A DNA stretch of 36,374 nt from Candidatus Desulfolinea nitratireducens (lineage in GTDB: Bacteria; Chloroflexota; Anaerolineae; Anaerolineales; Villigracilaceae): contig JACNJN010000091.1 in NCBI GenBank assembly GCA_014382535.1, forward strand, positions 1-36,374, written 5' to 3'. Positions 20,590-36,374 of the stretch are shown here, one piece after another (position 1 is the stretch's first letter; each line of letters opens with the position of its first letter). The notes beneath the pieces are model-generated. The model made no database searches and had not been told where the DNA came from. It saw only the letters and a list, made by a program, of their open reading frames with translations. A program made the translations under genes and the position numbers.

Positions 20590-20619
20590 CTCCCCTACTG
20601 ATAAATGCAGACAGGGGAG
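20590..20619 (-). promoter_or_regulatory. Hairpin in the leader of the permease-Usp gene
   Basis: CTCCCCT at 20590-20596 pairs with AGGGGAG at 20613-20619, and an inner CTG pairs with CAG across an ATAAATG loop. The element lies 26-55 nt before the start codon and outside the ribosome binding site. No U run follows, so it is not an ordinary terminator. It does not match a riboswitch class I recognise. Confidence 0.35.
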
Positions 20620-20780
20620 AAGCTTGCGGTTTCTTCAGATTTTTTGTAAGCAAATTGTACCTGATTTTAATCCAATAATAAATTATTTTCCTAGATCATT
20701 AAAGAATATGATAAATTGGGAAGCAAATCGAAGCCACCCTACCTGCCATCAAATTTCGGTAATAAAAGATCGCTATTCCA

Positions 20781-22205: not shown

Positions 22206-22214
22206 ATGTTTATT

Positions 22215-22276
22215 GGCACACCAGTGCCTTATCTCCTTCTCGTATTGGTTTATATATAAAAGGGCTTGAATTACAA
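22215..22276 (-). promoter_or_regulatory. Promoter and leader of the nitronate monooxygenase-type gene
   Basis: On the minus strand, TTGTAA (22276-22271) and TATAAA (22254-22249) are separated by 16 nt. The predicted leader is about 38 nt. It contains AAGGAG at 22238-22233, then a GGCAC-TGGT-GTGCC hairpin (22228-22215), then the ATG at 22205. The ribosome binding site is thus 27 nt from the start unless the hairpin brings them together. Confidence 0.4.
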
Positions 22277-22388
22277 AGACCAAGCGCCTCGAAGGGTTAT
22301 AACACAAAATAACTCTGATAGGCACGCTAGAACTTACATCATTGAAGATCGCTCTAAGGATTTGGTAAAAATTCCCAACAGATTGCTT

Positions 22389-22394
22389 TATAAT
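22389..22394 (+). promoter_or_regulatory. -10 box of the DUF255 gene
   Basis: TATAAT lies 37 nt before the ATG at 22432, in the divergent gap with the nitronate monooxygenase gene. No convincing -35 is found at 16-18 nt. The leader has only a weak ribosome binding site, CAGG, about 9 nt before the start. Confidence 0.4.
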
Positions 22395-22431
22395 TAGACA
22401 AATAATGTCCATAAATCACAGGTATTAAAAT

Positions 22432-24465
22432 ATGAATCTCCTCTCAAAATCCGCTTCTCCCTACCTTCTTCAACATGCCGAGAACCCGGTCCACTGGCAT
22501 GAATGGAACGATGAATCCATCTCCAAAGCCAAAGCCGAAGATAAACCCATCTTTCTCTCAATCGGCTATGCTGCTTGCCACTGGTGCCATGTGATGGCGC
22601 ACGAGTCCTTCGAAGATGAAGAGACTGCCGCGATCATGAACAAATATTTCATCAACATCAAAGTAGATCGAGAAGAGCGTCCAGATATTGACAGCATTTA
22701 CATGAAGGCCGTGGTCGCCTTGACCCAGCAAGGCGGCTGGCCCATGTCCGTTTTTCTGACACCCGATCTAAAACCCTTCTATGGTGGCACTTACTTCCCG
22801 CCCGAGCCGCGCTACCAGATGCCTTCCTTCCAGCAGGTGCTAAATGGAGTTGCTGCGTCTTGGCACGATGACCGTGCCCAAATCGACAGCGTTGGCGACC
22901 AGCTTACACGCCAGATCCAGACCGAAGCAGGAATGACTAGTAATCAAAAAAGTATCGCGCCCGAACAGGTCCAAACTGCCCGGGAACGACTGACGGAGGT
23001 CTATGACTGGCAAGACGGTGGCTGGGGGGCTGCGCCTAAATTCCCACAGGCAATGACCATCGATTTCCTGCTACGTGATACTGAAGCCCATGCGGAAAAA
23101 TCCCCCGCCCTGCACGCCCTCGACGCCATGGCACGCGGCGGCATCTACGATGTGGTCGGCGGCGGCTTTGCTCGCTACAGCACTGATGCCAAATGGTTTC
23201 TCCCGCATTTTGAAAAGATGGCTTACGATAATGCCCTGCTCGCCCGCGCCTACCTGCACGCTTGGCAGATCACAGGCAAACCCCATTACCGCCAGATCTG
23301 CGAAGAAACACTTTCCTTTTTTTCGCGTGAAATGCGCGATGAACAAGGCGGATTTTATTCATCACTTGATGCCGACTCCGAAGGTGTTGAAGGCAAATTT
23401 TACGTTTGGACAAAAGAAGAGCTTGTAAGCGTCCTGAAAGATGACTATACGCTATTTGAAGCAGCGTATGGGATCACCCCACAAGGAAATTGGGAAGGGA
23501 AAATCGTATTGCAACGCACACTGGATGATAAAACCCTTGCCGCCCGCTTCGCGCTTGCACCAGAAGAGATTCCCATAAAATTAGCACAATGCCATCAAGA
23601 ATTATTGGTCGTACGAGACAAACGCATCCGCCCCGGCACAGACGACAAAGTCCTGACCGAATGGAATGGCTTGATGTTGATCGCCTATGCTGAGGCCGCC
23701 CGCGTACTCGATAATGGACACTACCTGGACATCGCGCAGAAGAATGCAAACTTCCTGCTCACAGCCCTGCGCCCAGACGGAGAACTGCGCCGCGCATGGC
23801 GCAAAGGTAGAGTTGGCAGCGAAGTTTTCCTTGCCGACTACGCCGCCTTGATCCTCGGCTTGCTTGAGCTTTACCAAACGGATTTCGATAATCGTTGGTT
23901 TGTGGCAGCACAAGAACTCGCAGATGAGATGATCGGGAAGTTCAGCGACCCGGAAGGTGGTTTTTTCGACACCACGAACGAAGCAGCAAAAAAGAGTGAT
24001 TTACCCATCCGTCCGAAAGAATTGCAGGATAACGCTATTCCGTCAGGGAATGCTCTAGCAGTTGAAGCCTTGCTCAAGCTGGATGCTTTCACGGGGAATG
24101 CTGATTATCGCCAACGAGCAGAAGAATCGCTAGGGCTAGTGAGCGAATTCGTAACCATGTATCCAAGCTCCTTTGCCCAATGGTTATCAGGCACAGATTT
24201 TGCATTTCAGCAAATCAAGCAGATTGCTATTATTGGAGACCTTGATAGCGATGGAACACAGGCACTTATTGAAGAAACACGGTTAAAATATCGACCAAAT
24301 ACAGTCATAGCAGCAACACCACATCCTATCCCCGAAGAAGCGCCGGCTTTATTAAATAACAGAACACTCAAAAACGATCTTCCAACAGCTTATGTATGCG
24401 AAGGCTTCGCTTGCAAATTTCCAGTAAATACTTTAGAAGAGTTACGTGGACAGTTAGATCATTAG
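22432..24465 (+). CDS. Thioredoxin-fold DUF255 protein (YyaL / SSP411 family)
   Basis: The 677-residue protein matches the YyaL/spermatogenesis-associated protein 20 family in length and order. An N-terminal thioredoxin-like domain carries AACHWCHVMAHESF, with a CxxC pair at Cys49 and Cys52, followed by IKVDREERPDIDS. A long (alpha/alpha) barrel region follows with GGWPMSVFLTPDLKPFYGG, FPQAMTIDFLLRD, GGGFARYSTDAKWFLPHFEKM and LDADSEGVEGKFYVW. The C-terminal part ends in the conserved AYVCEGFACKFPV. The biochemical role is unsettled in the literature; redox or sugar-epimerase-like activity has been suggested. It is transcribed away from the nitronate monooxygenase gene and ends 83 nt before the first tRNA-like sequence. 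Confidence 0.9.
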   Translation: MNLLSKSASPYLLQHAENPVHWHEWNDESISKAKAEDKPIFLSIGYAACHWCHVMAHESFEDEETAAIMNKYFINIKVDREERPDIDSIYMKAVVALTQQGGWPMSVFLTPDLKPFYGGTYFPPEPRYQMPSFQQVLNGVAASWHDDRAQIDSVGDQLTRQIQTEAGMTSNQKSIAPEQVQTARERLTEVYDWQDGGWGAAPKFPQAMTIDFLLRDTEAHAEKSPALHALDAMARGGIYDVVGGGFARYSTDAKWFLPHFEKMAYDNALLARAYLHAWQITGKPHYRQICEETLSFFSREMRDEQGGFYSSLDADSEGVEGKFYVWTKEELVSVLKDDYTLFEAAYGITPQGNWEGKIVLQRTLDDKTLAARFALAPEEIPIKLAQCHQELLVVRDKRIRPGTDDKVLTEWNGLMLIAYAEAARVLDNGHYLDIAQKNANFLLTALRPDGELRRAWRKGRVGSEVFLADYAALILGLLELYQTDFDNRWFVAAQELADEMIGKFSDPEGGFFDTTNEAAKKSDLPIRPKELQDNAIPSGNALAVEALLKLDAFTGNADYRQRAEESLGLVSEFVTMYPSSFAQWLSGTDFAFQQIKQIAIIGDLDSDGTQALIEETRLKYRPNTVIAATPHPIPEEAPALLNNRTLKNDLPTAYVCEGFACKFPVNTLEELRGQLDH

Positions 24466-24547
24466 AAGTTGAACTCAATAGACGATTTTCTATTTTACAG
24501 CATCAACACCCGGGGATCATAAGTTTATGTGCACGACAGATAGATCG

Positions 24548-24594
24548 TCGGGCTCATAACCCGGAGGTCGCAGGTTCGAGTCCTGCCCCCGCTA
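24548..24594 (+). pseudogene. 3' half of a tRNA-Met(CAU)-like gene, locus A
   Basis: The anticodon arm (TCGGG-CTCATAA-CCCGG, anticodon CAT at 24555-24557), the variable region, the T arm (GCAGG-TTCGAGT-CCTGC) and the 3' acceptor strand CCCCGCT plus discriminator A are all intact. The 5' acceptor strand should be AGCGGGG but is not found upstream. The best local match, CCCGGGG, pairs at only 5 of 7 positions, and there is no normal D arm. I therefore call it a displaced 3' half, an att-like remnant, not a working tRNA. Bases 24553-24594 are identical to 29714-29755. Confidence 0.7.
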
Positions 24595-24595
24595 T

Positions 24596-24622
24596 AAAAA
24601 GGCACCCAATCGGGTGCTTTTT
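24596..24622 (+). terminator. Terminator hairpin after tRNA-like sequence A
   Basis: GCACCC (24602-24607) pairs with GGGTGC (24612-24617), flanked by an A run and a T run, 2 nt after the tRNA-like 3' end. This is the usual position of a tRNA terminator and suggests that the 3' half was carried together with its native downstream sequence. Confidence 0.75.
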
Positions 24623-24634
24623 CCTTTAATATCT

Positions 24635-24695
24635 GGAGTCTACAGGACTGGGGCTCATAACCTTTTGGTCGCAGGTCCCAGTCTTGTAGAAGCCA
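24635..24695 (+). repeat. 61-nt tRNA-Met-like sequence lacking a D arm, with inverted arms (A')
   Basis: The order is 7-nt 5' strand GGAGTCT, 7-nt ACAGGAC, anticodon-like TGGGG-CTCATAA-CCTTT, GCAGG-TCCCAGT-CTTGT as a degenerate T arm, then AGAAGCC and A. The length and layout equal those of the 29695-29755 copy. The same bases can fold differently. TCTACAGGACTGGG (24639-24652) is the reverse complement of 24677-24690 apart from one wobble, giving a 14-bp helix around a 24-nt loop. Confidence 0.5.
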
Positions 24696-24819
24696 TTTCC
24701 TAAAAATACAGTTTTTCATGAACCTTAGATCGTAGGGTTCGATGACGTAATAAAAATTCCCTCGCGGGGTTTATCAGCTTCGTGTATTAATCCCAAGTTG
24801 GAGATATTGGGGAGAAGAA

Positions 24820-24860
24820 CAGGCTGGTAATAAGGAGTCTCTTAGAAGCCTGCCCTTTTT
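24820..24860 (+). terminator. Possible hairpin terminator at the left border of cassette 1
   Basis: CAGGCT (24820-24825) pairs with AGCCTG (24847-24852), with an inner AAGG/TCTT helix, followed by CCCTTTTT. It would act on plus-strand transcripts entering from the tRNA-like locus and meets the minus-strand moaD-like gene end 52 nt away. Confidence 0.3.
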
Positions 24861-24912
24861 GTCCCGTTTCTTCTGATGACGTACAACAAGCCCTTCAGGG
24901 GAGTTTGCTTTA

Positions 24913-25203
24913 TTAGCCACCTGCCCCAGGCGGGAACACAGCGATCTCATCCTGGTCTTGCAGCACGGTGTTTAATCTTTCGGGGAGGTGGTTATAGTGA
25001 ATTCCGTTGAGCATAATTGCCACTGACTGCCCAACAGTGCGTGAATTTTCGTCAAATAAGGCACAGCCGTGCTCACCACCAATCCTGGTTGCCAGCTCGC
25101 GGATAAAGTCAAGAAACAAGACCGGCGTGTTGTCACGCTGCTCAACCTCTCGTTGCCCGATTACGTCCCTGTACGTCAGATAACCCTTTACTTTGATGAT
25201 CAA
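24913..25203 (-). CDS. MoaD/ThiS-family small sulfur-carrier-like protein
   Basis: The 96-residue protein has the ubiquitin-like beta-grasp pattern and ends in the diagnostic Gly-Gly (VFPPGAGG) that is adenylated and thiocarboxylated in MoaD proteins. MoaD donates sulfur to make the dithiolene of molybdopterin, the cofactor that binds W or Mo. Its place at the end of an operon headed by an aldehyde:ferredoxin oxidoreductase, which needs a tungsto-bispterin, fits a dedicated cofactor role. The start is TTG at 25203, chosen because GAGG precedes it by 7 nt and the strand begins MIIKVKG. It lies 21 nt after the SCP2-like gene. No MoaE or MoeB is seen here, so partners must be elsewhere. Confidence 0.85.
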   Translation of the reverse strand: MIIKVKGYLTYRDVIGQREVEQRDNTPVLFLDFIRELATRIGGEHGCALFDENSRTVGQSVAIMLNGIHYNHLPERLNTVLQDQDEIAVFPPGAGG

Positions 25204-25224
25204 ACCTTATACCTCAAGAACATT

Positions 25225-25716
25225 TCATACGCTGGTTTTCTCCCGGAACTCAGACAGGTCAGCCCGGTAGGCTTCCAGTTCCTCTGCAGACATCTCGTCA
25301 GGGAATTGAAGCTCGAACTGGGTCAGAGCATCAACGAAGTGATTGGCATACGGGGTGATCTTCAGCAGGCCGGGTTTGCTGCCTGACTCCAAAGCGATCT
25401 TCCCCAGCATGAATTCCGAGATGAACTTCTTGTCTTTTCGTAGGATGCTTTTCCAAACCTGGGGGGTGGCTGCCAGGATGAAGTCGGCCCTGTTTTGTGA
25501 TTCTGTTTCATTGTAGAAGGACAGTTCCAGCAATTTTCCAGCTTCGACCTCGGCGCCAAATATGATGTCCTTTTCGATGCCCCAGTCGGGTTCAGCGGTG
25601 ATGCGATAAAAGATCTTCGTGGTCACCTTCTTGAGCGCGTTTTCAAAGCGGTCAGTGGCGCGGTACAGCTTTGCGCCCTCTTCCAGCCATTCCGGCGAGC
25701 AGTATCGGATTGTCAT
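25225..25716 (-). CDS. SCP2 sterol-carrier-like domain protein
   Basis: The 163-residue protein resembles the SCP2 fold. It has an N-terminal helix with YCSPEWLEEGAKLYRA, a beta-sheet segment FYRITAEPDWGIEKDIIFG, then ADFILAATPQVWKSIL and FMLGKIALESGSKPGLLK. These are typical of a lipid-binding tunnel that accepts fatty acids or acyl-CoA. The C-terminal 35 residues are acidic and helical. It is read from ATG with AGGAG upstream and lies between the acyl-CoA synthetase and MoaD-like genes. A role in presenting a hydrophobic aldehyde, acid or acyl-CoA to its operon partners is inferred from context. Confidence 0.7.
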   Translation of the reverse strand: MTIRYCSPEWLEEGAKLYRATDRFENALKKVTTKIFYRITAEPDWGIEKDIIFGAEVEAGKLLELSFYNETESQNRADFILAATPQVWKSILRKDKKFISEFMLGKIALESGSKPGLLKITPYANHFVDALTQFELQFPDEMSAEELEAYRADLSEFREKTSV

Positions 25717-25742
25717 TTGTCTCTCCTTGTTTTCTTCAAACC

Positions 25743-27428
25743 TTATTTCTCAGATTGGGCCTGGGTCTTTTCAATCACCTCGTCCCTCAATACTTTTTTG
25801 AACACTTTCTCTGTCACTGTCAGTGGTAGCTCCTCACGCAACTCGATGGTTTTTGGTATGGCGTAGGGTGCAAGTTTACTCTTGCAGAACTGGATAATCT
25901 CTGCCTCAAACACCTTGCCCTTGTATTCTTCCTTCAATTGAATGACCGCCATAACCCGCTCGCTGCCGGGCACATCTGGGTCTGGTACCCCGAAGGCGGC
26001 TGCCATCAGAATCGCAGGGTGAGCGAACAACACCTCATCGACTGTAGTAGTGTACACTTTCATGCCCGAGATGTTGACCATATCCTTGATCCGGTCAACA
26101 AGCTGCATGTAGCCATCTTCATCCATCACAGCGATATCCCCAGTGTGCAACCAGCCGGTTTCCGTCAACCCGGAGCCGACTTTAGGCCAGTAGCCTTTCA
26201 TCACCTGCGGGCCACGCAGCACGATCTCTCCCGGCTCACCCAGCGGCACTTCCTCGCCTGTATCCGGGTCGACCAGCTTGCACTCGGTATCCGGGGTAGG
26301 AATCCCGATCCCGGGCTTTTCCTTTTGCATGAACCCGGTGATCTTGGAGAAGGCGGAAACGTTCATGGAGGCTACGGTCGATGTTTCCGTGAGTCCATAG
26401 CCTTCTGAGATCGGCACACCCGTCTTTTGTTGGACTGCCCTGGAAACTTCCACTGGCAGGGGAGCAGAGCCGCTCAGGAACATGGAGTTCAATCGGGGCA
26501 GCGGCTCCTGTGCGATGCGCATGAACTGGGTAGGTACGCCTGTGATCAGAAACGGGCGGAACTCCTGGATGGTTCTAGCCATCAGGGTAGTATCTCGTGG
26601 GTCTGGCAGTACGATCGCGCGCATACCAAGATAAGCGGCTGATTGGTAAACGTAGTGACCATATGTATGAAACAGCGGAACTGCGACCAGAACTGATGCT
26701 TTGCCAGCGAAACCGCGTAGCATCGGCTCCATCAGCCAAGGCAAACCCTGTCTGATACAGTTATAGCGGTTCGCGTGGGTTATCATGACTCCCTTGGGTA
26801 CACCGGTGGCGCCCCCAGTAAAGCCCAGCTCACACAGATCATGTTCCGGGTCAATTTCTACTTGCGGAGGAGTGTCTTCTCCCTGCTCCAGGATATCGGT
26901 GAGCGCATGTACGCCCTCAGGAAGCGAGGCCTGCCTTAGGGGTTCTCCGTAGCCATTCTGGGAAGTAAGCAGGATATGCTCCAACTCCGTCTGGTTTCGG
27001 ATTCCCAAGACTCTTTCCAGTTGCGTTTCTGAGCAGATGATTACCCGGCTATTCGAGCTTCCGACCTCGTGTTGCAGACCTTCGTCGGTGCGCAGGATGC
27101 TGGTGGGAACAACCGCAGCCCCGGTCTTCATCACCGCCCAATCGCCCAGGATGAATTCGATGCAGTTGGGCAGGAACAGACAAACGCGATCGCCTTTCTC
27201 AACCCCCAGTTTGGCCAAGCCAGATGCCAGCCGGTCCACCAAAGCCTTCAACTGACGATACTTGATCTCCTTCCCTTCAAACAAAACAGCCGTTTGCCCA
27301 GGGTAGTTCTTGGCGGCATCCTCCAGTGCCTTGAAGACCGGTTCTTTTGGATATGGCTTTAGGCTTTCCTTTAGCTTATACGGCCCTAGTTTGTAGCTCT
27401 TCAGCCAGGGCTTTTCCGAATAGATCAT
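25743..27428 (-). CDS. AMP-forming acyl-CoA synthetase (fatty-acid or aryl-acid:CoA ligase)
   Basis: This ANL-superfamily enzyme activates a carboxylic acid with ATP to acyl-AMP and then acyl-CoA. The 561-residue protein has the A3 loop TGGATGVPKGVM (204-215), the A5 motif GYGLTETST (343-351), TGD (429-431) and the hinge DRIKDMVNISGMKVY (445-459). The A10 lysine is Lys541 in TVTEKVFKKVLR. The A3 loop has Ala where Ser or Thr is usual, a mild departure. Between the aldehyde oxidoreductase and SCP2-like genes it would capture the acid product as CoA thioester. Chain length cannot be judged. Gaps to both neighbours are under 30 nt, so it is one operon. Confidence 0.9.
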   Translation of the reverse strand: MIYSEKPWLKSYKLGPYKLKESLKPYPKEPVFKALEDAAKNYPGQTAVLFEGKEIKYRQLKALVDRLASGLAKLGVEKGDRVCLFLPNCIEFILGDWAVMKTGAAVVPTSILRTDEGLQHEVGSSNSRVIICSETQLERVLGIRNQTELEHILLTSQNGYGEPLRQASLPEGVHALTDILEQGEDTPPQVEIDPEHDLCELGFTGGATGVPKGVMITHANRYNCIRQGLPWLMEPMLRGFAGKASVLVAVPLFHTYGHYVYQSAAYLGMRAIVLPDPRDTTLMARTIQEFRPFLITGVPTQFMRIAQEPLPRLNSMFLSGSAPLPVEVSRAVQQKTGVPISEGYGLTETSTVASMNVSAFSKITGFMQKEKPGIGIPTPDTECKLVDPDTGEEVPLGEPGEIVLRGPQVMKGYWPKVGSGLTETGWLHTGDIAVMDEDGYMQLVDRIKDMVNISGMKVYTTTVDEVLFAHPAILMAAAFGVPDPDVPGSERVMAVIQLKEEYKGKVFEAEIIQFCKSKLAPYAIPKTIELREELPLTVTEKVFKKVLRDEVIEKTQAQSEK

Positions 27429-27455
27429 GTTGCCCTCACTCCACTTTCTTGTGCA

Positions 27456-29330
27456 TCAGCCCCATAGATCAGGGATCAGATCCTCAAGATCCAATTCCCG
27501 CAGTTTTTCCTGGGTAGGGATACCCGTGGCAGAGTCCCATCCCCGGAAGTCATAATAGGCATCTTTCATCAGTTCGAGCATCTCCGGGTCATTGACCATC
27601 CCTTCGGCCGGGCCGCCCGGTATCGGTTGTGCCATCAACCGCTCTGGCAGCACATCGTCCTCGCGAGAAGCGCCTTCTCGAACGCAAGCAGCCCGGGTCA
27701 GGTTGTAGATCCGTTCTCCTGCTTTACGGAAGTCCTCGACCGTGGTTGACCAGCCTGTAGCTTTCACATAAAGGTCAAGCAGTTCATCAGCAGGCAGCAG
27801 CATGCCCATAAACTTGCACCCCCCAAAAGCGTCCAGGACCGTCAAGGCGTTCTCCATGTCGACCAGCACATGGGCTTCCTCCGGGTTGGCCTGGAATGGG
27901 TCTCGAATGCTACTATCATCTACGATTAGGAAGGGAATGTCCATGAAGGTTGGTCCTTGGATATAGCCGGTCATGTGGTCACCGCCGCGGTTGGCGGTCA
28001 CGTAGCCCAACCCAGTGATTTTGGCAGCGCGTGAGTCATAGGCTGGCAATTCCAAGCCCTTGACATGCATGGCAAACTTCTCACTACCCTGGCCAAGTTT
28101 TTCTGCGACAGCCTTCGTTCCCTTTGCAAGCAGATCGCCGATTCCCTCGCGAATGGCGATCTTTTTTACCAGAGCTACCACCATGTCTCCATCACCAAAA
28201 GTGATCTCAAGACCATCAGTCTGTTCTTTGGTGATGATTCCTTTTTCAAAGCACTCCATTGCAAAGGCGATGGTTGCGCCAGTGCTGATCGTATCTAGCC
28301 CGTATTCGTTACACAGGTAATTGGATTTGGTGATAGCGTTAATGTCTGAAACACCGCACATGCTACCCAGTGTGTTAGTTGACTCGTATTCCGGTCCTTC
28401 GCCCTTATCCCCTTTCCATTTGCCTTCTTTGATCTCGGTTCCCCGTCCGCAGGTGATCGGGCAGGCAAAACAACGGGTTCCTTCCACAAACACAGTATCC
28501 ATGATCGCCTGGGCATTGACATCGTCAATACCATCGAAAACTCCCTGCTGCCAATTCATGGTGGGATAGCCGCCCCGGACATGTACGAAATCTGCCACCA
28601 TATTGGTCCCGAAAGCATCAAATCCGACCTTGAGCATCGATTCGTCGATCAAGTCGAATTGCTTGGTGGCGGCATCATGAAATCCTTTTTTGTCCGCCAG
28701 TTGGACCGGTTGCGATCCGACACAGGCGATTGCTTTGAGTTTTTTGGAGCCCATCACTGCCCCGAGCCCGCAGCGTCCGGCAGCGCGATGTTTGTTGTTC
28801 ATAATCGCGGCGTAGGTCACCAGGTTCTCACCAGCCTGCCCTATAGCAGCCACGGTCAGCTTTTGAGAGATGCTATCCTGCAAAGCATCCTCTGTGTCTG
28901 GTACAGTCTTTCCCCAGAGGTGAGAGGCGTCAAGCAACTCGGCCTTGCCGTCAATGATTTGCAGTGCAACTGGTGTAGGGGAGACACCTTCAAAGATAAT
29001 CCCGTCATAGCCGCTCTTTTTCAGAACCGGGCCGAAACTGCCACCGGAATTTGCCTGTCCCCACAGGTTGGTCTGTGGAGATTTGGCCACCACCGAATAC
29101 CGGCTGGCGCTGGCCGATGCAGTTCCAGTCAGCGGTCCGGTCATGAAGATCAGTTTATTTTCTGGTCCCAGTGGATCAATTCCGCTTGGAACCTCCTCAT
29201 AGAAGTATTTTGTAGCTAATCCAGTTCCCCCCAGGTATTGTTTTGCCCACGTTTGGTTTATCTCTTCGACTGTGATTGTATGGTTGGTAAGGTCTACGCG
29301 TAGCAGCTGACCCATGAAACCGTAGCTCAT
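27456..29330 (-). CDS. Aldehyde:ferredoxin oxidoreductase, tungsten/pterin family
   Basis: This enzyme oxidises aldehydes to acids with ferredoxin, or the reverse with low-potential electrons. It should bind one [4Fe-4S] cluster and a W or Mo bispterin. The 624-residue protein starts at MSYGFMG, with GGAG 6 nt upstream; the in-frame TTG at 29342 overlaps that ribosome binding site and is rejected. Cluster ligands are CFACPITC (Cys287, 290, 294) and Cys505 in DAFGGCKFMG, closely matching the spacing of Pyrococcus AOR. The pterin-binding segments RYSVVAKSP, AAGRCGLGAVMGSKKLKAI and ELPAYDSRAAKITGLGY are present. It is the first gene of the cassette 1 operon. Confidence 0.95.
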   Translation of the reverse strand: MSYGFMGQLLRVDLTNHTITVEEINQTWAKQYLGGTGLATKYFYEEVPSGIDPLGPENKLIFMTGPLTGTASASASRYSVVAKSPQTNLWGQANSGGSFGPVLKKSGYDGIIFEGVSPTPVALQIIDGKAELLDASHLWGKTVPDTEDALQDSISQKLTVAAIGQAGENLVTYAAIMNNKHRAAGRCGLGAVMGSKKLKAIACVGSQPVQLADKKGFHDAATKQFDLIDESMLKVGFDAFGTNMVADFVHVRGGYPTMNWQQGVFDGIDDVNAQAIMDTVFVEGTRCFACPITCGRGTEIKEGKWKGDKGEGPEYESTNTLGSMCGVSDINAITKSNYLCNEYGLDTISTGATIAFAMECFEKGIITKEQTDGLEITFGDGDMVVALVKKIAIREGIGDLLAKGTKAVAEKLGQGSEKFAMHVKGLELPAYDSRAAKITGLGYVTANRGGDHMTGYIQGPTFMDIPFLIVDDSSIRDPFQANPEEAHVLVDMENALTVLDAFGGCKFMGMLLPADELLDLYVKATGWSTTVEDFRKAGERIYNLTRAACVREGASREDDVLPERLMAQPIPGGPAEGMVNDPEMLELMKDAYYDFRGWDSATGIPTQEKLRELDLEDLIPDLWG

Positions 29331-29471
29331 ATCTTTCTCCAATCTTGTGATTACAGGTAGCTGATTGTTTACGCTGGCAAATGTGAGAGCTTAGATAAAT
29401 CCTTATTGATGTACCCTGGCAGAATGTTCTACGCTTGCATGGAGGATGGCTGGCAATGTTGTTGTTTAATT

Positions 29472-29500
29472 ATCTTACATCTATCTGAAATAATTTACAA
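29472..29500 (-). promoter_or_regulatory. Candidate promoter of the AOR operon
   Basis: On the minus strand, TTGTAA (29500-29495) and TAAGAT (29477-29472) are separated by 17 nt, each matching consensus at 4 of 6 positions. The leader to the AOR start would be about 135 nt. A second -35-like TTGACA (29595-29590) lacks a good -10. Confidence 0.3.
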
Positions 29501-29611
29501 GTAAATTCCTGAAGTTTAAAAATTAGTTCGGGTATCGACAACGAAAAAGGAGAAACAAGGGAGGGCAATAGGCAGACTCTGAACAATAATGTCAATATGG
29601 TAAAATGCAAT

Positions 29612-29633
29612 TTAGGTTTTACCCTAAACCTAA
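29612..29633. promoter_or_regulatory. Inverted repeat upstream of the AOR operon (possible operator)
   Basis: TTAGGTTT (29612-29619) and AAACCTAA (29626-29633) form a perfect 8-bp dyad around TACCCT. No U run follows on the minus strand, and it lies about 110 nt upstream of the candidate promoter. It could be a regulator site or a border structure of the cassette. Confidence 0.3.
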
Positions 29634-29694
29634 AAACCTCAATAAGCTGTAGACTGTCGGGTTAGCTCGTAAGCAAAGTTTTTCCTTCAAAGAT

Positions 29695-29755
29695 GGCTTC
29701 CACAAGACTGGAACTCATAACCCGGAGGTCGCAGGTTCGAGTCCTGCCCCCGCTA
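29695..29755 (+). pseudogene. Chimeric 61-nt tRNA-Met-like sequence, locus B
   Basis: The 5' part (GGCTTCC-ACAAGAC-TGGAA) matches the D-arm-less A' sequence. From CTCATAA onward (29714-29755) it is identical for 42 nt to tRNA-like A. The two halves do not pair. TGGAA cannot pair fully with CCCGG in the anticodon stem, and GGCTTCC cannot pair with CCCCGCT in the acceptor stem. It therefore cannot be a working tRNA and looks like a recombinant junction. Confidence 0.65.
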
Positions 29756-29763
29756 CTCAAAAC

Positions 29764-29800
29764 AAAGAAACCGCCAACACTTGATGTTGAGCGGTTTCTT
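29764..29800 (+). terminator. Terminator hairpin after tRNA-like sequence B
   Basis: The arms AAGAAACCGCCAACA and TGTTGAGCGGTTTCTT pair over 15 bp with one bulged A and a 5-nt loop. The same stem with a different loop recurs at 35250-35285, which marks the two loci as copies. Confidence 0.75.
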
Positions 29801-29860
29801 GCTGTTTATACGATGTTTTAAGGGATAAAGTGTCGAAAACAAGTTTTATTTGCTAAATAG

Positions 29861-29891
29861 CGGTTCGAGTCCTTTACCTTGTTAACAAGGT
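29861..29891 (+). repeat. Second tRNA 3'-end-like fragment and 16-bp palindrome, locus B
   Basis: CGGTTCGAGTCCT (29861-29873) repeats a tRNA T-arm sequence 60 nt after the terminator, as at 35368-35380. It is followed at 29876-29891 by the perfect palindrome ACCTTGTTAACAAGGT. Confidence 0.5.
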
Positions 29892-30009
29892 TTTCGATTC
29901 CAATACTACCTCTCAAATAACACAATTGAGTGTCTTTTTTGTTCAGGTTCATGTTTTAGAACAGTAGCTTCCAACCCTAGGGTTACAGAATATAGCTTTG
30001 TAATGAAAC
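29892..30009. other. Gap with no recognisable gene between locus B and cassette 2
   Basis: The stretch is AT-rich with no convincing ORF, ribosome binding site or promoter. With the neighbouring tRNA-like elements it makes up the gene-free region 29331-30023. Confidence 0.4.
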
Positions 30010-30037
30010 TTAGATTGCCTGGCTCATGGCAATCTAA
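30010..30037 (-). terminator. Hairpin spanning the stop codon of the cytochrome gene
   Basis: TTAGATTGCC (30010-30019) pairs perfectly with GGCAATCTAA (30028-30037), and the TGA stop of the cytochrome gene (30026-30024) sits in the 8-nt loop. Only a short T-rich tract follows on the minus strand, so termination may be weak. Confidence 0.45.
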
Positions 30038-31709
30038 CATTTTCTGCTTTCATCACGATGTCTGGCACATCCCAGCTTTTTTGATCCATTAGTTCGATAA
30101 AGGCGCGGCGGAAGAGTAAGGTCACTGAGACTTCCGAAGTTTCTGAAACTTCGGAAGTCTTAAATATATAAGTCGTCGTATCACTTCCCATCGCCGGGAT
30201 GCGGTTATCACTGACAATGCGGGTAGGATTCCAATAAGCTCCACTCGGGGAAATTTCTGTCCACAATTCCATCAGGATTTTGGCATAGGCTGTACCTGGC
30301 GCGCCAGCAAAATACCCATCAGCGTATTCGCCAACACCACCCCAGTCTGGCACAAGAGGTCCCTCGAGTTGTTGGAGCTTTTCACCATTTTCATCTATAA
30401 CTTCCACTAACAAGATGAGATGACGGAGCGGCGAATCGGTGGGGATATGATGCCCCGTCTGGTCGTTTATAAGTTCTACTTCAACGATAACCTTGTCGTC
30501 TTTTCGATGCGTATCTACGTTCATTGTGACAGCATTTTGGAGGATTTCCTCGTCCGCAGCGCCTGGCATACGATGGCTGAAGATCGAAGACGGATCACGC
30601 GCCTGTCCACCTGCTTCCGGAAGAGCAAAACGTGTCACGTCGATAGGCCGCATGTGGCAATCCTGACAGGTTTGCCCGGTCTTGGGATCACTATAAGGAC
30701 TCTCCAGCCACTCTCCAAAGGAATTGTAGATCAACGTATCCCAGAATACACCAAAATGACAGGGAGCACAAAATTGGCTTTGCTGCTGCAATGGGGAATA
30801 GGTATCTTCGCCTGGTGCGACATCATCAAAGGGGCCCGCAAAAAACTGGTGTCCGTCCGGTGGGCGGCGAAACTCATACGACAAGACTCCCGGCATATTG
30901 GGGCGAGGCAGGCCGGAGGTCGAGTCAAGACGCACGCCCCATACCTTGTGACAGAAGTCACAAGGAACACCTTCGGCGGGAACATCGTTCACAGTCGTCG
31001 GGTCTACACTATAGGGATCATTAACAGAAGCGGCTGGCGTATGACAGGCTGCGCAGTTGCCAGCCGTATCCGGGAAATCAAGCTTATAGCCGGGACCGAA
31101 GTATGGTTGATCTGGGTCAGGTCCCAACGGGAAGCGACCATAATCACGGCTACTCCCATAAAGGGTAAGAGGACTCTGGTTTCCATGCATATCGGTACCT
31201 GAATACATACTGACAAAGCGCGGATTTATTGCTGCTTGGGAATGCGCATCTTGTAGCCATTCATCGACGGGGAGGGTAAAAGAAAGCTCTGAATTTGCAT
31301 TGCTGTGGCACTCCGCACAGCCCTGATCTTCACCCTGGCCAGGATGATACTGAGATGGCAGCCATTCATAAGCTGGATTGTCAGAATCAGTGTGTGCTTC
31401 AAGGTGTATTTCGACATCACTTATCCCCGGCACAACATCCTGCGCGCCCGCGATATAGTAACCGGATTTCCAGGCCGTGACAGTGATGGCCTCGCCTGAA
31501 GCCAATCCAGAAAGCGAGAAATGTCCTTCGCTATCGGAGATTGTATAGTTCTCGGTGGTTTGCACACGCACTACAGCTTCAGCTACTGGGCCATATTCAT
31601 CAAGTATTATGCCCGAGGTTGTATCCGGCCCTTTACAGGATGTTATAAGAATCCCAAAAGATAATATCCCCACTAATAGGTGCAGAAATGCTTTCTTTAT
31701 GCGGTGCAT
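30024..31709 (-). CDS. Pentaheme cytochrome c lipoprotein with N-terminal carboxypeptidase-regulatory-like domain
   Basis: The 561-residue protein starts with a signal and lipobox LITSC (Cys25). A beta-sandwich like carboxypeptidase regulatory domains follows at about residues 31-105 (IILDEYGPVAEAVVRV, GHFSLSGLASGE). Five CxxCH heme c sites come next at about residues 131, 219, 250, 314 and 348: CAECH, CAACH, CDFCH, CAPCH, CQDCH. Many His, Met and Tyr residues could be distal ligands. Such proteins carry electrons at the cell surface. The ATG at 31709 is chosen because it is 4 nt after the stop of the propeller gene and gives a clean signal peptide; a longer frame to 31748 overlaps that gene. 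A perfect 33-bp palindrome lies inside the coding sequence at 30128-30160. Confidence 0.88.
   Translation of the reverse strand: MHRIKKAFLHLLVGILSFGILITSCKGPDTTSGIILDEYGPVAEAVVRVQTTENYTISDSEGHFSLSGLASGEAITVTAWKSGYYIAGAQDVVPGISDVEIHLEAHTDSDNPAYEWLPSQYHPGQGEDQGCAECHSNANSELSFTLPVDEWLQDAHSQAAINPRFVSMYSGTDMHGNQSPLTLYGSSRDYGRFPLGPDPDQPYFGPGYKLDFPDTAGNCAACHTPAASVNDPYSVDPTTVNDVPAEGVPCDFCHKVWGVRLDSTSGLPRPNMPGVLSYEFRRPPDGHQFFAGPFDDVAPGEDTYSPLQQQSQFCAPCHFGVFWDTLIYNSFGEWLESPYSDPKTGQTCQDCHMRPIDVTRFALPEAGGQARDPSSIFSHRMPGAADEEILQNAVTMNVDTHRKDDKVIVEVELINDQTGHHIPTDSPLRHLILLVEVIDENGEKLQQLEGPLVPDWGGVGEYADGYFAGAPGTAYAKILMELWTEISPSGAYWNPTRIVSDNRIPAMGSDTTTYIFKTSEVSETSEVSVTLLFRRAFIELMDQKSWDVPDIVMKAENVRLP
30128..30160. 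repeat. 33-bp perfect palindrome within the cytochrome coding sequence
   Basis: The arms 30128-30143 (AGACTTCCGAAGTTTC) and 30145-30160 are exact reverse complements around a single central base. The length is 11 codons, so the frame is kept, and it encodes the repetitive TSEVSETSEVS. A partial match ACTTCGGAAG occurs at about 35539-35548. It looks like a small palindromic repeat inserted in frame. Confidence 0.7.
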
Positions 31710-31713
31710 GATC

Positions 31714-34677
31714 TTACTTCTTGCGGCGCGAAATCCAAACCAAACCAATCAAAGCTAGAGGAGCAAGTCCACCCAGGCAAGGTACATTCGATGCTGGCTT
31801 TTCTGTGGGCTCACCAGGATGCGGTTCTGGTTCTCCCGGGAGAGCGGGCTCGTCTTGTGGAGGTGATTCGGGCTGCATTGGAGGCTGAGCAGAGACTTCA
31901 GGTGGCTGACCGTTAAAATCTAAGCGAAACACTCCTCCTCCGCTAGTTCCAGCGTATAAATGCTGTCCATCCGATGAAATTGAAAGGCTAGTCACAGCAC
32001 GGTTGCTAAGTCCTTGGGTAATCTTAATCCAGCTTTCACCTGCGTCTGTGGATTGATAGATACCACTTGTGATGTCACCAACATACACGACATTCGGATT
32101 TGTACGATCAAACACAATATCGCGATGGATGCCGTTAGGCTCCAGGCCTGCTGCGAGTTGTCTCCAAGTATCGCCTCCATCTTCGCTTGTAAACAATCCC
32201 TGGTATTGGACACCAGCAATAAGTTTATTCGGATTTCCCGGACTCACAGCAACTGTACGTACTGGTTGACCCTGGGATAAACCCGTAAGGGAATCCCAAC
32301 TTCCACCACCGTCTTTGGATTTGAACAACCCGATTTGTGAAGCAACATAAACTATGTTCGCATTTGTGTAGTCGACCGAAACATCGGTCAAAATCGCATC
32401 ATTAAACTGCGCCCCGGTTATATCACTCCAACTAGAGCCACCATCGCGTGAAACAACGATACCTTTTCCACTTTCATACACATCGGCGTGAACCATTGAG
32501 TTGTGGTTGGCAGAAACGGAATAAACGATTTTTGGATCAGAGGGGGCAAACTCAATCTCGCTGGTTTCAGGGAAGTAATTTGGTGGGGGGATATGATGCG
32601 CCCAGCGATTTTCGTCAGAAACCCATTCCAGGAAACCATGTTGCCCTCCTAAAATGATGTGGTCTTTACGGACAGGATCAAAAGCAACGCCGCCCCATTC
32701 CCCTCCTGCCAAAGGCTGGTGTTCACCGGGGTTATGGATACCGTGCCACGTCAGTCCACCATCATTGCTGTACCAAACCCCGCTGCGCCCAGCCGCGAAT
32801 ACACGTGCAGGGTCAAAAGGATCTACAGCAACACCAATGATCTGAGCCCCGGAATAACCTGTGCTGGCATTCTTCCACGTTTTTCCACCATCTTCACTCA
32901 AGAAATTGCCACCACCATAGTTGTTTGCAAAAACTCGGTCCGGATTGCGGGGGTCGCATTGCATATCAATGGGCCATCCGGCACCAACTCCTGGTGGTCC
33001 CCAGCTTTGCAGGCCACCAGCCATCAGAGCCCAGTTGCTACCACCATCCTCACTGCGATAAATGGCCACATCACTGCCAGCATATATAATATTTGAATTG
33101 GATGGGCATATCTCAACCGAACTGAAGACCTGCACGAAAAAATCACCTTCAGGCTCAAGGACTTGCTGCCAGTTCTCACCGCCATTCGTTGTGCGATAAA
33201 TGCCAAGTGGACTGTGACCTTGATCCCGATAATACTGAAATGCCGGATCAGGGACAACATGTCCCGCAGCGGCAAAGAGTACATCAGGATTTTCCGGATG
33301 CATGTACAGGCTGCCGATATAACGGAAATCCAACCCGCTCTCAGCCCCCAACACACGCCATGAACCACCACCATCGGTAGATTTAAGCACGCCCAACCCG
33401 CCAAACGGATCTGGGTTTGTCTCAATATCTGTTTCCCCTACAGCACCACGATCAAAAATACCTGTAGATACGTAGAGCGCATCCGGATTCTGCGGATTGA
33501 TCCACATATAACGCGCAAGGCTGGATGGAATTGCACCATTCCAGATGCGCGTCCAGTGCTCACCGCCATCGACGGTTTTGTAGATAACACCACCAACCCC
33601 CAAACCCCAAACATTGTTTCCAGGGCGTTGCAATTCACCCATGGCATAAACAACATCGGATGTGCGCGGATCAACTGTAAAGCCACGAAAGCTCAAAATG
33701 GTTTCATGTTCGTGAATAATCCCCTCCGCTTTTTTTAGCCATGTGCGGCCACCATCCATCGATTTATAGATATCGCCCGTTTTGTCTGTTCCTATCCAGA
33801 TAATTTGGGGATCATGCGGATCAACAGTTAGCGAGAAAACTGGGATACCATCGCCTGCTGGGCCACCAATCGTTTCAATCCCCTGGTTGCTTTGCTCCCA
33901 TGTCAGACCATTATCTGTGCTGATGTGGACTCCAGCATTAGCATCAGTTACATACCAGATATCCGGATTGTCAAATTTATAGCGGATGTCATACCCGAGG
34001 CCGCCGGGAGGTCCGCCCAGACGAACCCAGCTAAGCTCTCCGCTGGATGGGACTTCCGCTATCGGAACGGGAACAGAGCCCACTCCCCATATCTCAACAT
34101 CATCAATCAGAACCTGTGATTCTGCCAGGGATTCAAAGGCGACCCCACCACTTACTAAAGGTTCCGGATCGGTATAAGTCATCACAACCTGCTCTCCCAC
34201 TATTACCGTAATGGTTGGCCCATAGCCAGTGATTTCAACAGTTTTCCAGCCATCTCCAAGCCCACCTGCATTTGCCAGGCTTTCTGTAAAACTATCTGGC
34301 CCTGTTTGCTTAATAAGATAGGAACCTTCGGGGCCCAGGCCAATAAAATAACGACTTGGTCCAGCCGCCATGCGAAAGTTAGCATGCAGGGTGGCATCGC
34401 CGGTTAATTTGACCCTAAAGCGCAAGCGATAATCGCTCCAAGAGCCGCTTGTCAGGGAAGCCCAAACATGACCCTGCCCCGCAAGGACATGACTGGTATC
34501 ACTTTCGATAACATCCCATCCGGGGTCTAGTTCCCACTCTTCGGGCCGCCCAGTTTCGAAATCTTGAGAATAGAGCAAAACATCTTCTTGAGCTAGCACG
34601 CCCCCTGTAGATAAAATTAGTAAAACAAAGACAACCCCTACGAGAACACTTCGGTGAGAAGGTTTTATAACCATCAT
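31714..34677 (-). CDS. Secreted Asp-box (BNR) beta-propeller protein with C-terminal membrane/sorting tail
   Basis: The 987-residue protein has a signal peptide (about 1-29, cut near GVLA). A jelly-roll-like domain (about 33-200, SQDFETGRPEEWE and LIDDVEIWG) follows. A long propeller region comes next with 12 Asp-box-type motifs such as STDNGLTW, SMDGGRTW, TVDGGEHW, SEDGGKTW and STDAGESW, as in sortilin/VPS10-like and xyloglucanase-type propellers. A Pro/Glu-rich linker (about 922-966) leads to Cys967, a hydrophobic helix GLAPLALIGLVWI and the basic end SRRKK. No sialidase catalytic residues are recognised, so binding or scaffolding is likelier than hydrolysis. The start follows AAGGA. It is 4 nt upstream of the pentaheme gene, so the two form an operon. 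Confidence 0.85.
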   Translation of the reverse strand: MMVIKPSHRSVLVGVVFVLLILSTGGVLAQEDVLLYSQDFETGRPEEWELDPGWDVIESDTSHVLAGQGHVWASLTSGSWSDYRLRFRVKLTGDATLHANFRMAAGPSRYFIGLGPEGSYLIKQTGPDSFTESLANAGGLGDGWKTVEITGYGPTITVIVGEQVVMTYTDPEPLVSGGVAFESLAESQVLIDDVEIWGVGSVPVPIAEVPSSGELSWVRLGGPPGGLGYDIRYKFDNPDIWYVTDANAGVHISTDNGLTWEQSNQGIETIGGPAGDGIPVFSLTVDPHDPQIIWIGTDKTGDIYKSMDGGRTWLKKAEGIIHEHETILSFRGFTVDPRTSDVVYAMGELQRPGNNVWGLGVGGVIYKTVDGGEHWTRIWNGAIPSSLARYMWINPQNPDALYVSTGIFDRGAVGETDIETNPDPFGGLGVLKSTDGGGSWRVLGAESGLDFRYIGSLYMHPENPDVLFAAAGHVVPDPAFQYYRDQGHSPLGIYRTTNGGENWQQVLEPEGDFFVQVFSSVEICPSNSNIIYAGSDVAIYRSEDGGSNWALMAGGLQSWGPPGVGAGWPIDMQCDPRNPDRVFANNYGGGNFLSEDGGKTWKNASTGYSGAQIIGVAVDPFDPARVFAAGRSGVWYSNDGGLTWHGIHNPGEHQPLAGGEWGGVAFDPVRKDHIILGGQHGFLEWVSDENRWAHHIPPPNYFPETSEIEFAPSDPKIVYSVSANHNSMVHADVYESGKGIVVSRDGGSSWSDITGAQFNDAILTDVSVDYTNANIVYVASQIGLFKSKDGGGSWDSLTGLSQGQPVRTVAVSPGNPNKLIAGVQYQGLFTSEDGGDTWRQLAAGLEPNGIHRDIVFDRTNPNVVYVGDITSGIYQSTDAGESWIKITQGLSNRAVTSLSISSDGQHLYAGTSGGGVFRLDFNGQPPEVSAQPPMQPESPPQDEPALPGEPEPHPGEPTEKPASNVPCLGGLAPLALIGLVWISRRKK

Positions 34678-34699
34678 TTCATCCTTTCAAGATTATGAT

Positions 34700-34801
34700 T
34701 TACTCTTTCCATTCAAGCACGCCAATATAAAAGATCGCATTCCCATCATTGCCGCCATATGCAGGCCAGGGATTACCAAGGGCATCCTTGGCAGGACAAG
34801 A
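34700..34801 (-). pseudogene. Possible 3' remnant of a lost gene
   Basis: On the minus strand an open stretch of 33 codons with no start codon ends at a TAA (34702-34700). It reads protein-like as KDALGNPWPAYGGNDGNAIF followed by YIGVLEWKE. It lies just before the propeller gene's ribosome binding site. The composition looks like the C-terminus of a secreted protein, possibly a deleted upstream gene of this cassette. The evidence is only sequence character. Confidence 0.3.
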
Positions 34802-34802
34802 G

Positions 34803-35213
34803 GGCTATTTCTTTGTTAGCTGCGAAGATGATTGTTCCAATATCCACTGTCGAGGAAGTTGTAGATCTGATTTGTAGGAGATTCTTCACTCCCATTCTAC
34901 AGCTTTGCGCGTCAGGTTTCAACAGTGAGTCTTTTGGATCACGAACTTCTTGTGCTCTCCCGTTTAGCCATTCTCATTGATTCAGGTGAGTTTAAAAATT
35001 TGAACAACAATATTTCTGATTATTTGCACTAAATCCCCTATTTGAGCGCTGGAATTTACATTGAACTATGATTAGCGCGATTGTATGAGGAAAAAATTCT
35101 TTGTTCAAAGATAAGTAACACTGATGTTGCTTGACGATTCTCTATATTTCCATTAGATTCGTGAAAAAATGACACAGTTTTATTGTATTTTCCCCAAAAA
35201 TAAGGCGAAAAGT
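34803..35213. other. Gene-free stretch between cassette 2 and locus C
   Basis: No ORF here has a ribosome binding site or family character; a plus-strand frame at 34759-34980 looks random. A sequence near 34878-34905 (GGAGATTCTTCACTCC) resembles dispersed intergenic repeat sequence but cannot be confirmed from one copy. No clear promoter for the propeller gene was found. Confidence 0.4.
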
Positions 35214-35240
35214 GGTTCGGAACAGGTCCGCCAGGGGCTA
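35214..35240 (+). repeat. Degenerate tRNA 3'-end-like sequence, locus C
   Basis: GGTTCGG...GGGGCTA followed by CTAAGAA aligns with the T arm, acceptor end and flank of tRNA-like B, with several substitutions and small insertions. On its own the match is weak. The terminator 10 nt downstream, shared with locus B, and the second fragment at 35368 make it credible. Confidence 0.4.
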
Positions 35241-35249
35241 CTAAGAAAT

Positions 35250-35285
35250 AAGAAACCGCCAACATGCAATGTTGAGCGGTTTCTT
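35250..35285 (+). terminator. Terminator hairpin of locus C (copy of that in locus B)
   Basis: The arms AAGAAACCGCCAACA and TGTTGAGCGGTTTCTT are the same as at 29764-29800, with loop TGCAA in place of CTTGA. Stem conservation with loop change suggests an old duplication kept by structure. Confidence 0.7.
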
Positions 35286-35367
35286 GCTATATACTGCTGT
35301 GTTTCAAAGGAAAAAATGCTGAAAATGTACATTTGACTTTGAAAATTGGCATGTGTTTCTTGAAAAA

Positions 35368-35402
35368 CGGTTCGAGTCCTGTAGCTCGTTTTAAAGCCAT
35401 GG
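35368..35402 (+). repeat. Second tRNA 3'-end-like fragment, locus C
   Basis: CGGTTCGAGTCCT (35368-35380) is identical to 29861-29873. It continues GTAG, then about 10 foreign bases, then AAGCCA. That matches the CTTGTAGAAGCCA end of the A' sequence (24683-24695) with an insertion in the acceptor strand. Confidence 0.45.
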
Positions 35403-35472
35403 TTCCAAATATTACTCTTGAAAAAATACAAAACATGTCATTTTTCTGCTAGGTTACTGCCCTGTACTCGCA

Positions 35473-35516
35473 CTATTTACTAACCGTAGATCTGATGACC
35501 TACGGTTAGTAAATAG
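35473..35516. repeat. 17-bp perfect inverted repeat
   Basis: CTATTTACTAACCGTAG (35473-35489) and its exact reverse complement (35500-35516) flank a 10-nt loop. No T run follows on either strand, so it does not look like a terminator. It may be a structured RNA, a MITE-like remnant or a protein site. Confidence 0.6.
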
Positions 35517-35560
35517 CCTTACGCTCTGTGGTTCATTACTTCGGAAGGGATGTGTATTTT

Positions 35561-35584
35561 ATATTGTTCAAAAAGGAACAATAT
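35561..35584. promoter_or_regulatory. 9-bp inverted repeat upstream of the DsrE-like gene (possible operator)
   Basis: ATATTGTTC (35561-35569) and GAACAATAT (35576-35584) form a perfect dyad around AAAAAG. A TTGACT at 35584-35589 overlaps its end but has only a weak -10 (AAGAAT, 17-nt spacer). Size and symmetry suit a dimeric repressor. Confidence 0.35.
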
Positions 35585-35719
35585 TGACTAATAGGATGAA
35601 TTATGCAAGAATATTATGAGCGAAAGTGCATTGGGCTTGAGCATAAAAAATAGAAAATACCACAATATCCTATATTACTTTCAACTGATTGGATTCACTG
35701 ATTTGCATAAGGAGGAAAA

Positions 35720-35881
35720 ATGACAACTTCAACATTTATTCGTTGGGGTGGAATCGCACCCATTGTCACCGGATTAAACACAGCAGGTGCCACAATCATG
35801 CAGGGAAATAAAGGACAAATTTTGATCTGGATCAAAGTCAAAATTACAGTTAATACCCGATTTATATTTTCTAATATTTGA
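35720..35881 (+). pseudogene. 53-residue ORF, probably a truncated membrane-protein gene
   Basis: The ATG at 35720 has an excellent ribosome binding site, AAGGAGG, ending 5 nt upstream, so it is translated or once was. The first 23 residues, MTTSTFIRWGGIAPIVTGLN and following, look like the start of small membrane proteins that begin xxSTxIRWGGxAAxxAG. After residue 24 the resemblance is lost and the frame ends at 53. I read it as the 5' stub of a deleted gene fused to unrelated sequence. A genuine small protein is the alternative. It ends 11 nt before the DsrE-like ATG, so its translation could feed the downstream gene. Confidence 0.45.
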
Positions 35882-35892
35882 AGAAGAGCGAA

Positions 35893-36255
35893 ATGGCAAA
35901 AATTCTAGTTCATATTACACATGGCCCCGAACACCCGACAAGAGCAGCCCTTGGTTTTCATGTGGCGAAGGCAGCCATCGAAGAAGGCCACTCGGTAACT
36001 ATGTTCCTTGCTGGAGACGGTGTCCAGTTAATGCGAGATGGCGCTATTGATCACTTGAACGGACTTGGAACAGGCAACATGCGAGAACTCTATGATGTGG
36101 TTGTTGCAAGCGGCGTAAAGATCTATCTGTCTGGGATGTCCTCAAAGACAAGAGGACTACTCAAAGAAGAGTTGGAAGGGAAACCGTATGAGTTTGCTAC
36201 CCCAAAGCAACTCGTCCAACTGGCAGTTGAACACGATCAGTTGTTCACATATTAG
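35893..36255 (+). CDS. DsrE/DsrF-like family protein without cysteine
   Basis: The 120-residue protein has the DsrE-type alpha/beta pattern. It runs KILVHITHGPEHPTRAALGF, then EEGHSVTMFLAGDGVQLM, then GVKIYLSGMSSKTRG, as in small intracellular sulfur-relay relatives. DsrE and TusD transfer sulfur through a cysteine near the CGMS position. Here the segment reads LSGMSS, and no cysteine occurs anywhere in the protein, so persulfide transfer is unlikely and the role is unknown. The ATG at 35893 is chosen over a TTG at 35878 that overlaps the preceding stop. The gene ends 29 nt before the proposed IS end at 36285. Confidence 0.8.
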   Translation: MAKILVHITHGPEHPTRAALGFHVAKAAIEEGHSVTMFLAGDGVQLMRDGAIDHLNGLGTGNMRELYDVVVASGVKIYLSGMSSKTRGLLKEELEGKPYEFATPKQLVQLAVEHDQLFTY

Positions 36256-36284
36256 TAATGAAACCCAAAGTGGTGGATTACACC

Positions 36285-36332
36285 TGTCAACGACAATTAG
36301 AATTACCCATGAACGACAACTAGAAATGCCCA
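36285..36332. mobile_element. Left terminal repeats of an insertion sequence continuing past the window
   Basis: Two imperfect direct repeats, AACGACAATTAGAATTACCC (36289-36308) and AACGACAACTAGAAATGCCC (36312-36331), follow a TGT tip at 36285. The array mirrors the one at 1-55 in inverted orientation. Multiple short terminal repeats beginning TGT suggest an IS21/IS481-type end. No transposase lies within the window. Confidence 0.5.
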
Positions 36333-36374
36333 TAGTTATTGTCATAGGGAAGCTCATGCTTCCTGTGGGTTGGG

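Follow-up and report, generated by a model that had tools for sequence, protein, structure and literature searches.

The window, by which is meant the whole stretch of 36,374 nt analysed here (contig C12 of G000, a draft genome of 3.65 Mb in 223 contigs, 98% complete), raises the question of how three tRNA-derived borders came to bracket two gene cassettes, and of which kind of element left them there. The first-pass annotation had proposed serial insertion at a tRNA 3' end, in the manner of tycheposons or tRNA-site islands. Ribosomal protein L19 of G000 shows 69% identity to its counterparts in two complete Chloroflexota MAG genomes, against 44-49% for two Deltaproteobacteria, so that the host most probably belongs to the Chloroflexota. 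Related genomes (G002, G004, G008 and others) were used for comparison, with G004 representing the sister species. ARAGORN detected no tRNA in the 36,374 nt, in agreement with the earlier statement that a complete one is absent, and the Rfam scan of the window gave no match. Of the window ORFs searched, none gave a Pfam match to a recombinase, and PF00589 had no match on the window's contig, as the reported lack of a recombinase would have it, but the start relic of an integrase gene in border 1 (Table 1) had been missed.

The 42-nt segment previously described as identical between borders 1 and 2 is exactly so (24553-24594 and 29714-29755, 42/42 nt, chance expectation 0), and it equals the 3' half of the intact tRNA-fMet gene, running from CTCATAA in the anticodon loop through the last tRNA base. 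The intact gene, a search for which had been suggested, was found on a contig other than the window's (C213:10638-10710, minus strand). A 31-nt probe of the tRNA half matched two places in the window, namely borders 1 and 2, and none in 100 shuffles; other halves of tRNA-fMet are located in G000 on C79, C1 and C207, together with a fragmented one on C184. Past the half in border 1, the region 24630-24705 folds as single-strand DNA with -15 kcal/mol (z -4.2), and 0/200 shuffles were as good. The second tRNA-like fragment, which had been taken as equivalent in all borders, is this hairpin in border 1 and a common T-loop-like CGGTTCGAGTCC fragment (family D4) in borders 2 and 3. In several lineages, the left end has a hairpin, located 60-120 nt past the tRNA half, that holds a copy, often inverted, of the anticodon-loop core (L092 7615-7815, L098, L099, L090 11241-11441 and the window at 24639-24690).

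Table 1 Coordinates of the array, its borders and its left flank in the window
Feature	Position	Strand	Basis
dsbH-like gene, complete (DUF255 thioredoxin); flanks the array on the left	22432..24465	+	Pfam PF03190
TAGATCGTCGGG, presumed integrase half-site (copy), directly adjoining the border 1 tRNA half	24541..24552	+	Motif scan
Border 1, tRNA-fMet 3' half, anticodon loop to tRNA end	24553..24594	+	Identity to border 2 and to intact tRNA-fMet
Border 1, terminator hairpin	24596..24622	+	Fold
Border 1, strong hairpin with anticodon-core copy (second fragment of the first-pass annotation)	24639..24690	+	Fold
Unit 1, 19-nt inverted arm, left copy	24678..24696	-	18/19 match to inverted 29693-29711
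Start relic of the tRNA-fMet integrase gene (ATGAACCTTAGATCGTAGGGTTCG)	24718..24741	+	3/24 mismatches to related integrase gene starts; expected 0
Unit 1 cargo: AFOR, acyl-CoA ligase, 163-aa protein, ThiS/MoaD-like protein	24913..29342	-	Pfam
Unit 1 right end: conserved module, motif 29650-29663, arm 29693-29711	29580..29713	+	Alignment, 8 loci in 5 genomes
Border 2, identical tRNA-fMet 3' half	29714..29755	+	Identity to border 1
Border 2, terminator of the second border family (GAAACCGCCAACA..TGTTGAGCGGTTTC)	29767..29798	+	Common to border 3, C45 (twice), G002, G007
Border 2, T-loop-like second fragment	29849..29883	+	77% identical to 35356-35390
Unit 2 cargo: multihaem-cytochrome-like protein and Vps10/BNR repeat protein	30024..34677	-	Pfam, NCBIfam
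Border 3, right-end module of the second family, ending in AAAGTGGTTCGGAACAGGTCC	35120..35229	+	Alignment with 5 further loci
Border 3, degenerate tRNA 3' tail	35230..35245	+	Alignment
Border 3, terminator	35252..35283	+	Fold and likeness to border 2
Border 3, T-loop-like second fragment	35356..35390	+	Comparison with border 2

The segment between the outer edges of the two tRNA halves (unit 1, 24553-29755) behaves as one decayed element, with the 42-nt direct att repeats outside and a 19-nt inverted arm inside. For the 18/19 match of the arm pair, 0/381 and 0/373 random pairs were equally good; the left arm is located in and beside the core-copy hairpin, and the right one lies two bases off the core. 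The right end, overlooked in the first-pass annotation, comprises about 110 nt left of border 2 that are kept in 8 loci of 5 genomes, most of which stop where CTCATAA begins. It contains TAGACTGTCGGGTT at 29650-29663, and the left end contains TAGATCGTAGGGTT at 24726, inside the integrase-start relic. The common motif (TAGAYCGTCGGGYT) would be an integrase arm site, and the motif and the 19-nt arm are candidate arm-binding sites of the integrase. Three matches to the motif occur in the window, all at borders, against 0.43 expected; as 3/100 shuffles likewise reach three, this count is weak evidence alone. A longer integrase pseudogene was sought at border 1, and none was detectable past the relic. 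Among the ORFs of units 1 and 2, the Pfam scan gave no recombination, conjugation or mobilization genes, which leaves only the 24-nt integrase start.

The minus strand carries both cassettes, as had been described. The AFOR operon of unit 1 has an identical gene order in other Chloroflexota and in Desulfobacterota, and a DNA search of positions 20600-36374 against eight other genomes of the genus returned only one weak 115-nt match to it. A tRNA-Met half was present beside 0/80 AFOR loci elsewhere; carriage of this operon by the present element type is therefore not general.

Border 3 is built differently. One order of parts had been claimed for all three borders, and each does have a terminator hairpin, but border 3 is without the tRNA-Met 3' half and has instead another module, which ends in AAAGTGGTTCGGAACAGGTCC and is followed by a tRNA-like tail of about 12 nt. 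This end module also occurs in G002, G007, G008 and on C45 of G000, and partly in G004. The terminator stem said to be common to the last two borders was confirmed, with 82% identity over 57 nt. The GAAACCGCCAACA...TGTTGAGCGGTTTC terminator of borders 2 and 3 is found twice on C45, a contig that shares a 55-base overlap with the contig of an intact tRNA-Val(TAC) gene, and, slightly altered, after tRNA-Val(CAC) in G007; it therefore marks a second border family. The cargo of the C45 unit and of the G002 unit consists of sigma factor/MscS and GH3/TetR sets. Unit 2 with border 3 would belong to this second family, seen also beside tRNA-Val, although this assignment is less certain than that of unit 1. 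Paired arms in unit 2 were considered and rejected, neither orientation being above chance, and unit 2 is no more than a candidate for a single element.

The sister species provides a locus with one border. On contig C99 of G004, dsbH is followed by a single tRNA half and then by the sequence that follows the half on C207 in G000, the site of the fourth border. The left part, with the dsbH 3' end, is 85% identical to the border 1 flank, and the right part is 80% identical to the C207 flank. A relative with the same gene order and no borders had been named as a refuting observation; what was found is exactly one border between both flanks. Since G004 has a single scar at the dsbH locus, G000 carries at least 11.8 kb of extra units there, and the one-border state fits serial insertion. 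The link between the window and C207 itself rests on the logic of the flanks and on a common insertion-sequence (IS) end, which is multi-copy, in a draft assembly. Additionally, arrays that begin at the intact gene were observed in G048 (tRNA-fMet, 14.1-kb unit, half, 11.1-kb unit, half) and in G004 (tRNA-fMet, 9.4-kb unit, half, with the same arm of about 20 nt at both unit ends). Five genus members have kept the gene that lies upstream of the native tRNA-fMet, and the genes downstream of this tRNA in G000 had no match in the other native-site loci. A size constraint, suggested by several units of 5.2-5.7 kb, was dropped because other units measure 9-14 kb. The 11.1-kb unit of G048, integrase-less and placed between two tRNA-fMet halves, contains a complete Wadjet defence set (JetA-D; L098 4478-11285).

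Integrases are linked to the same tRNA site in relatives of the same taxonomic order. In G036 and G038, the intact tRNA-fMet has a terminator and then a tyrosine integrase gene directly downstream; in G058 these two come after a displaced tRNA half, and in G042 the contig starts inside the tRNA with the integrase downstream. These four site-linked enzymes are PF00589 tyrosine recombinases with 50-63% identity among themselves. In G024, a version of the integrase is cut off after about 46 codons, and a second integrase ends near the core on the opposite side. A search for a tyrosine recombinase elsewhere in the genome, also suggested earlier, was successful only in part: no close member of the site-linked family was found in G000, and the best match is a solitary tyrosine recombinase on C158 (L103 12196-13176), about 28% identical to that family, which has homologues in several genus members and is a candidate for action in trans. 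The integrase-bearing elements of G038, G042 and G058 (L134, L135, L136) have in common a second, divergent PF00589 protein and a DUF5679/HTH-like protein whose gene is on the opposite strand. When viral contigs were searched with the integrase, one relative at 35% identity emerged and no clear phage link.

Several further observations concern the surroundings. Positions 1-55 and 36287-36332 of the window hold short repeats resembling IS ends, common to C213, C207, C65 and C179. In G004, a large serine recombinase element (L115, contig C51, 2280-3946) has dsbH as its target too, with insertion at the codons for PHFE|KML, and dsbH fragments as part of the tRNA borders were dropped from consideration. 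In several genomes, the other side of this element is marked by C-terminal dsbH fragments that come after a conserved peptide on the reverse strand (SVSKRFSLG..GN..LNGY); at the serine-element dsbH loci L042 1715-3137, L118 2760-4126, L119 1-1543 and L120 4532-5985, the open frames are still intact. Fragments of the comM 3' end adjoin tRNA-fMet halves in several genus members (L087 5851-6376 and 12302-12817, L043 1-86, L093 14880-15266, L089 10594-10757), and two copies, 92% identical, surround the G002 unit.

In our judgment, the borders are quite probably attachment-site scars of integrative elements that inserted serially, lost their integrase and now form tandem cis-mobilizable elements (CIMEs). 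A tyrosine integrase of the tRNA-fMet-linked family would recombine the element with the anticodon loop, with the crossover at or near CTCATAA, so that a tRNA 3' half would be left behind, displaced to the element's far end. In this genus, one such half may have become fixed beside a dsbH gene, where it, or its copies in the array, could act as the site for later insertions, so that units would stack head to tail with a tRNA-derived scar bounding each. The integrase gene would have been lost later, save for its first 24 nt or so in border 1, and the operon-sized cargo remaining between att sites would constitute CIMEs. We infer the action of the enzyme, the use of the displaced half as the target and the state of present-day mobility, which without a helper is probably nil. 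What was observed comprises the scars, the conservation of the ends, the link of integrases to the site in relatives and the locus with one border. Counting in its favour are the origin of the 42-nt repeats in the anticodon loop, the arms and relic of unit 1, the right end at eight loci, G004:C99, the integrases of G036, G038, G042 and G058, the arrays in G048 and G004, and the patchy distribution of the unit 1 operon. Against it count an array that adjoins no intact tRNA, units that lack an integrase or, for unit 2, paired arms, the lack of a close-family integrase in G000, the joining of C207 by flank logic and the 0/80 AFOR loci. The initial proposal is thus retained as to serial insertion and a unit devoid of integrase, but the crossover is placed at the anticodon loop and not at the tRNA 3' end; the one-border locus, the arrays and the integrases of relatives support serial site-specific insertion at a tRNA-derived site, which here is a displaced half beside dsbH, with no intact tRNA adjoining the array.

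Other histories have been weighed against this one. That the tRNA-like pieces reflect chance similarity or ordinary terminators with no mobile history is highly improbable: border 3 is indeed short and degenerate, as are the second fragments of borders 2 and 3, but zero matches are expected for the 31-nt probe and the integrase-start motif, and the flanking modules are kept across species. Spread of the borders between old islands, through IS activity and homologous recombination and with no repeated site-specific insertion at this place, would account for the dsbH and comM 3' fragments duplicated beside tRNA halves in G000, G002, G004 and G008, for the IS ends at both window ends and for a unit 2 devoid of paired arms. 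However, the break of type-A right ends is in most cases exactly at CTCATAA, the inverted arms of unit 1 match, and homologous recombination alone would not put ends at the anticodon loop; this course of events appears unlikely.

The units could also be active cassettes on which an integrase from another locus acts in trans, much as cassettes without mobility genes are moved by an integron integrase; to this view we attach little weight. No recombinase was found in any examined unit of the genus, yet the ends are conserved between species, and the C158 enzyme with its homologues would be available; at the same time, that enzyme is only about 28% identical to the site-linked family, the ends are partly decayed, and border 1 keeps an integrase-start relic of its own, which points to loss and not to original absence. 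A tRNA-scar counterpart of the integron array, in which operon-sized, integrase-less cassettes with conserved ends would be shuffled among the displaced tRNA-fMet halves of this genus by the trans integrase, is an unlikely proposition as well.

If the borders are scars of serial insertion, site-specific recombination can stack whole operons for catabolism and electron transfer in a genome, where decay of the integrase then fixes them. Units of this sort escape island finders that require an intact tRNA and an integrase, both of which are filters stated for Islander: its islands must carry an integrase and be bounded by an intact tRNA and the fragment of that tRNA (PMC4383910). Islander-type islands resemble the window in the anticodon-loop crossover class, the displaced 3' tRNA fragment and the tandem arrays (PMC4383910), but the window has neither the intact tRNA nor the integrase, and the tRNA-integrase side is seen in G036 and G038. 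The tRNA half, the arm motif and the integrase-start relic offer paired-end signatures for finding similar units. Tycheposons share with the window a tRNA-Met at the border and metabolic cargo; in their description, the border tRNA is complete and the element has a tyrosine recombinase (PMC10872708), and since the window contains neither, the name tycheposon is not supported. The ssrA islands of Dehalococcoides, probably of the same phylum, are also tandem, bounded by RNA-gene 3'-end repeats and loaded with metabolic cargo, and 15 of them, with no integration module, have been proposed as CIMEs (PMC3146451). They differ in using the tmRNA T-loop and the serine recombinase DsiB, and their repeats lie downstream of an intact ssrA (PMC3146451), whereas the window repeats derive from tRNA-fMet from its anticodon loop onward, lie beside dsbH and are associated with PF00589 tyrosine integrases.

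Tandem CIMEs fit better than tycheposons as the closest known kind. The CIMEs of Streptococcus salivarius are att-flanked, have lost their recombination genes and occur in tandem, the small classical ones being 1.2-13 kb with metabolic cargo; their sites are the 3' ends of the genes rpmG, rpsI, fda or rplL, and all those detected had an ICE or IME as neighbour (PMC7563491). The window has the tandem order, the att flanks and the loss of recombination genes in common with them, but its scars are tRNA-fMet halves and no intact element adjoins. For unit 1, the CIME label fits by its att-flanked cargo (42-nt repeats, inverted arms) and by the mobility genes missing from it, as they are from unit 2; descent from an ICE or IME is putative, and the integrase relic in border 1 and the integrase-bearing relatives bear on it. 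Compared with these systems, the anticodon-loop scars, the operon-sized cargo and the proposed use of a displaced tRNA half next to dsbH as insertion site are the new points.
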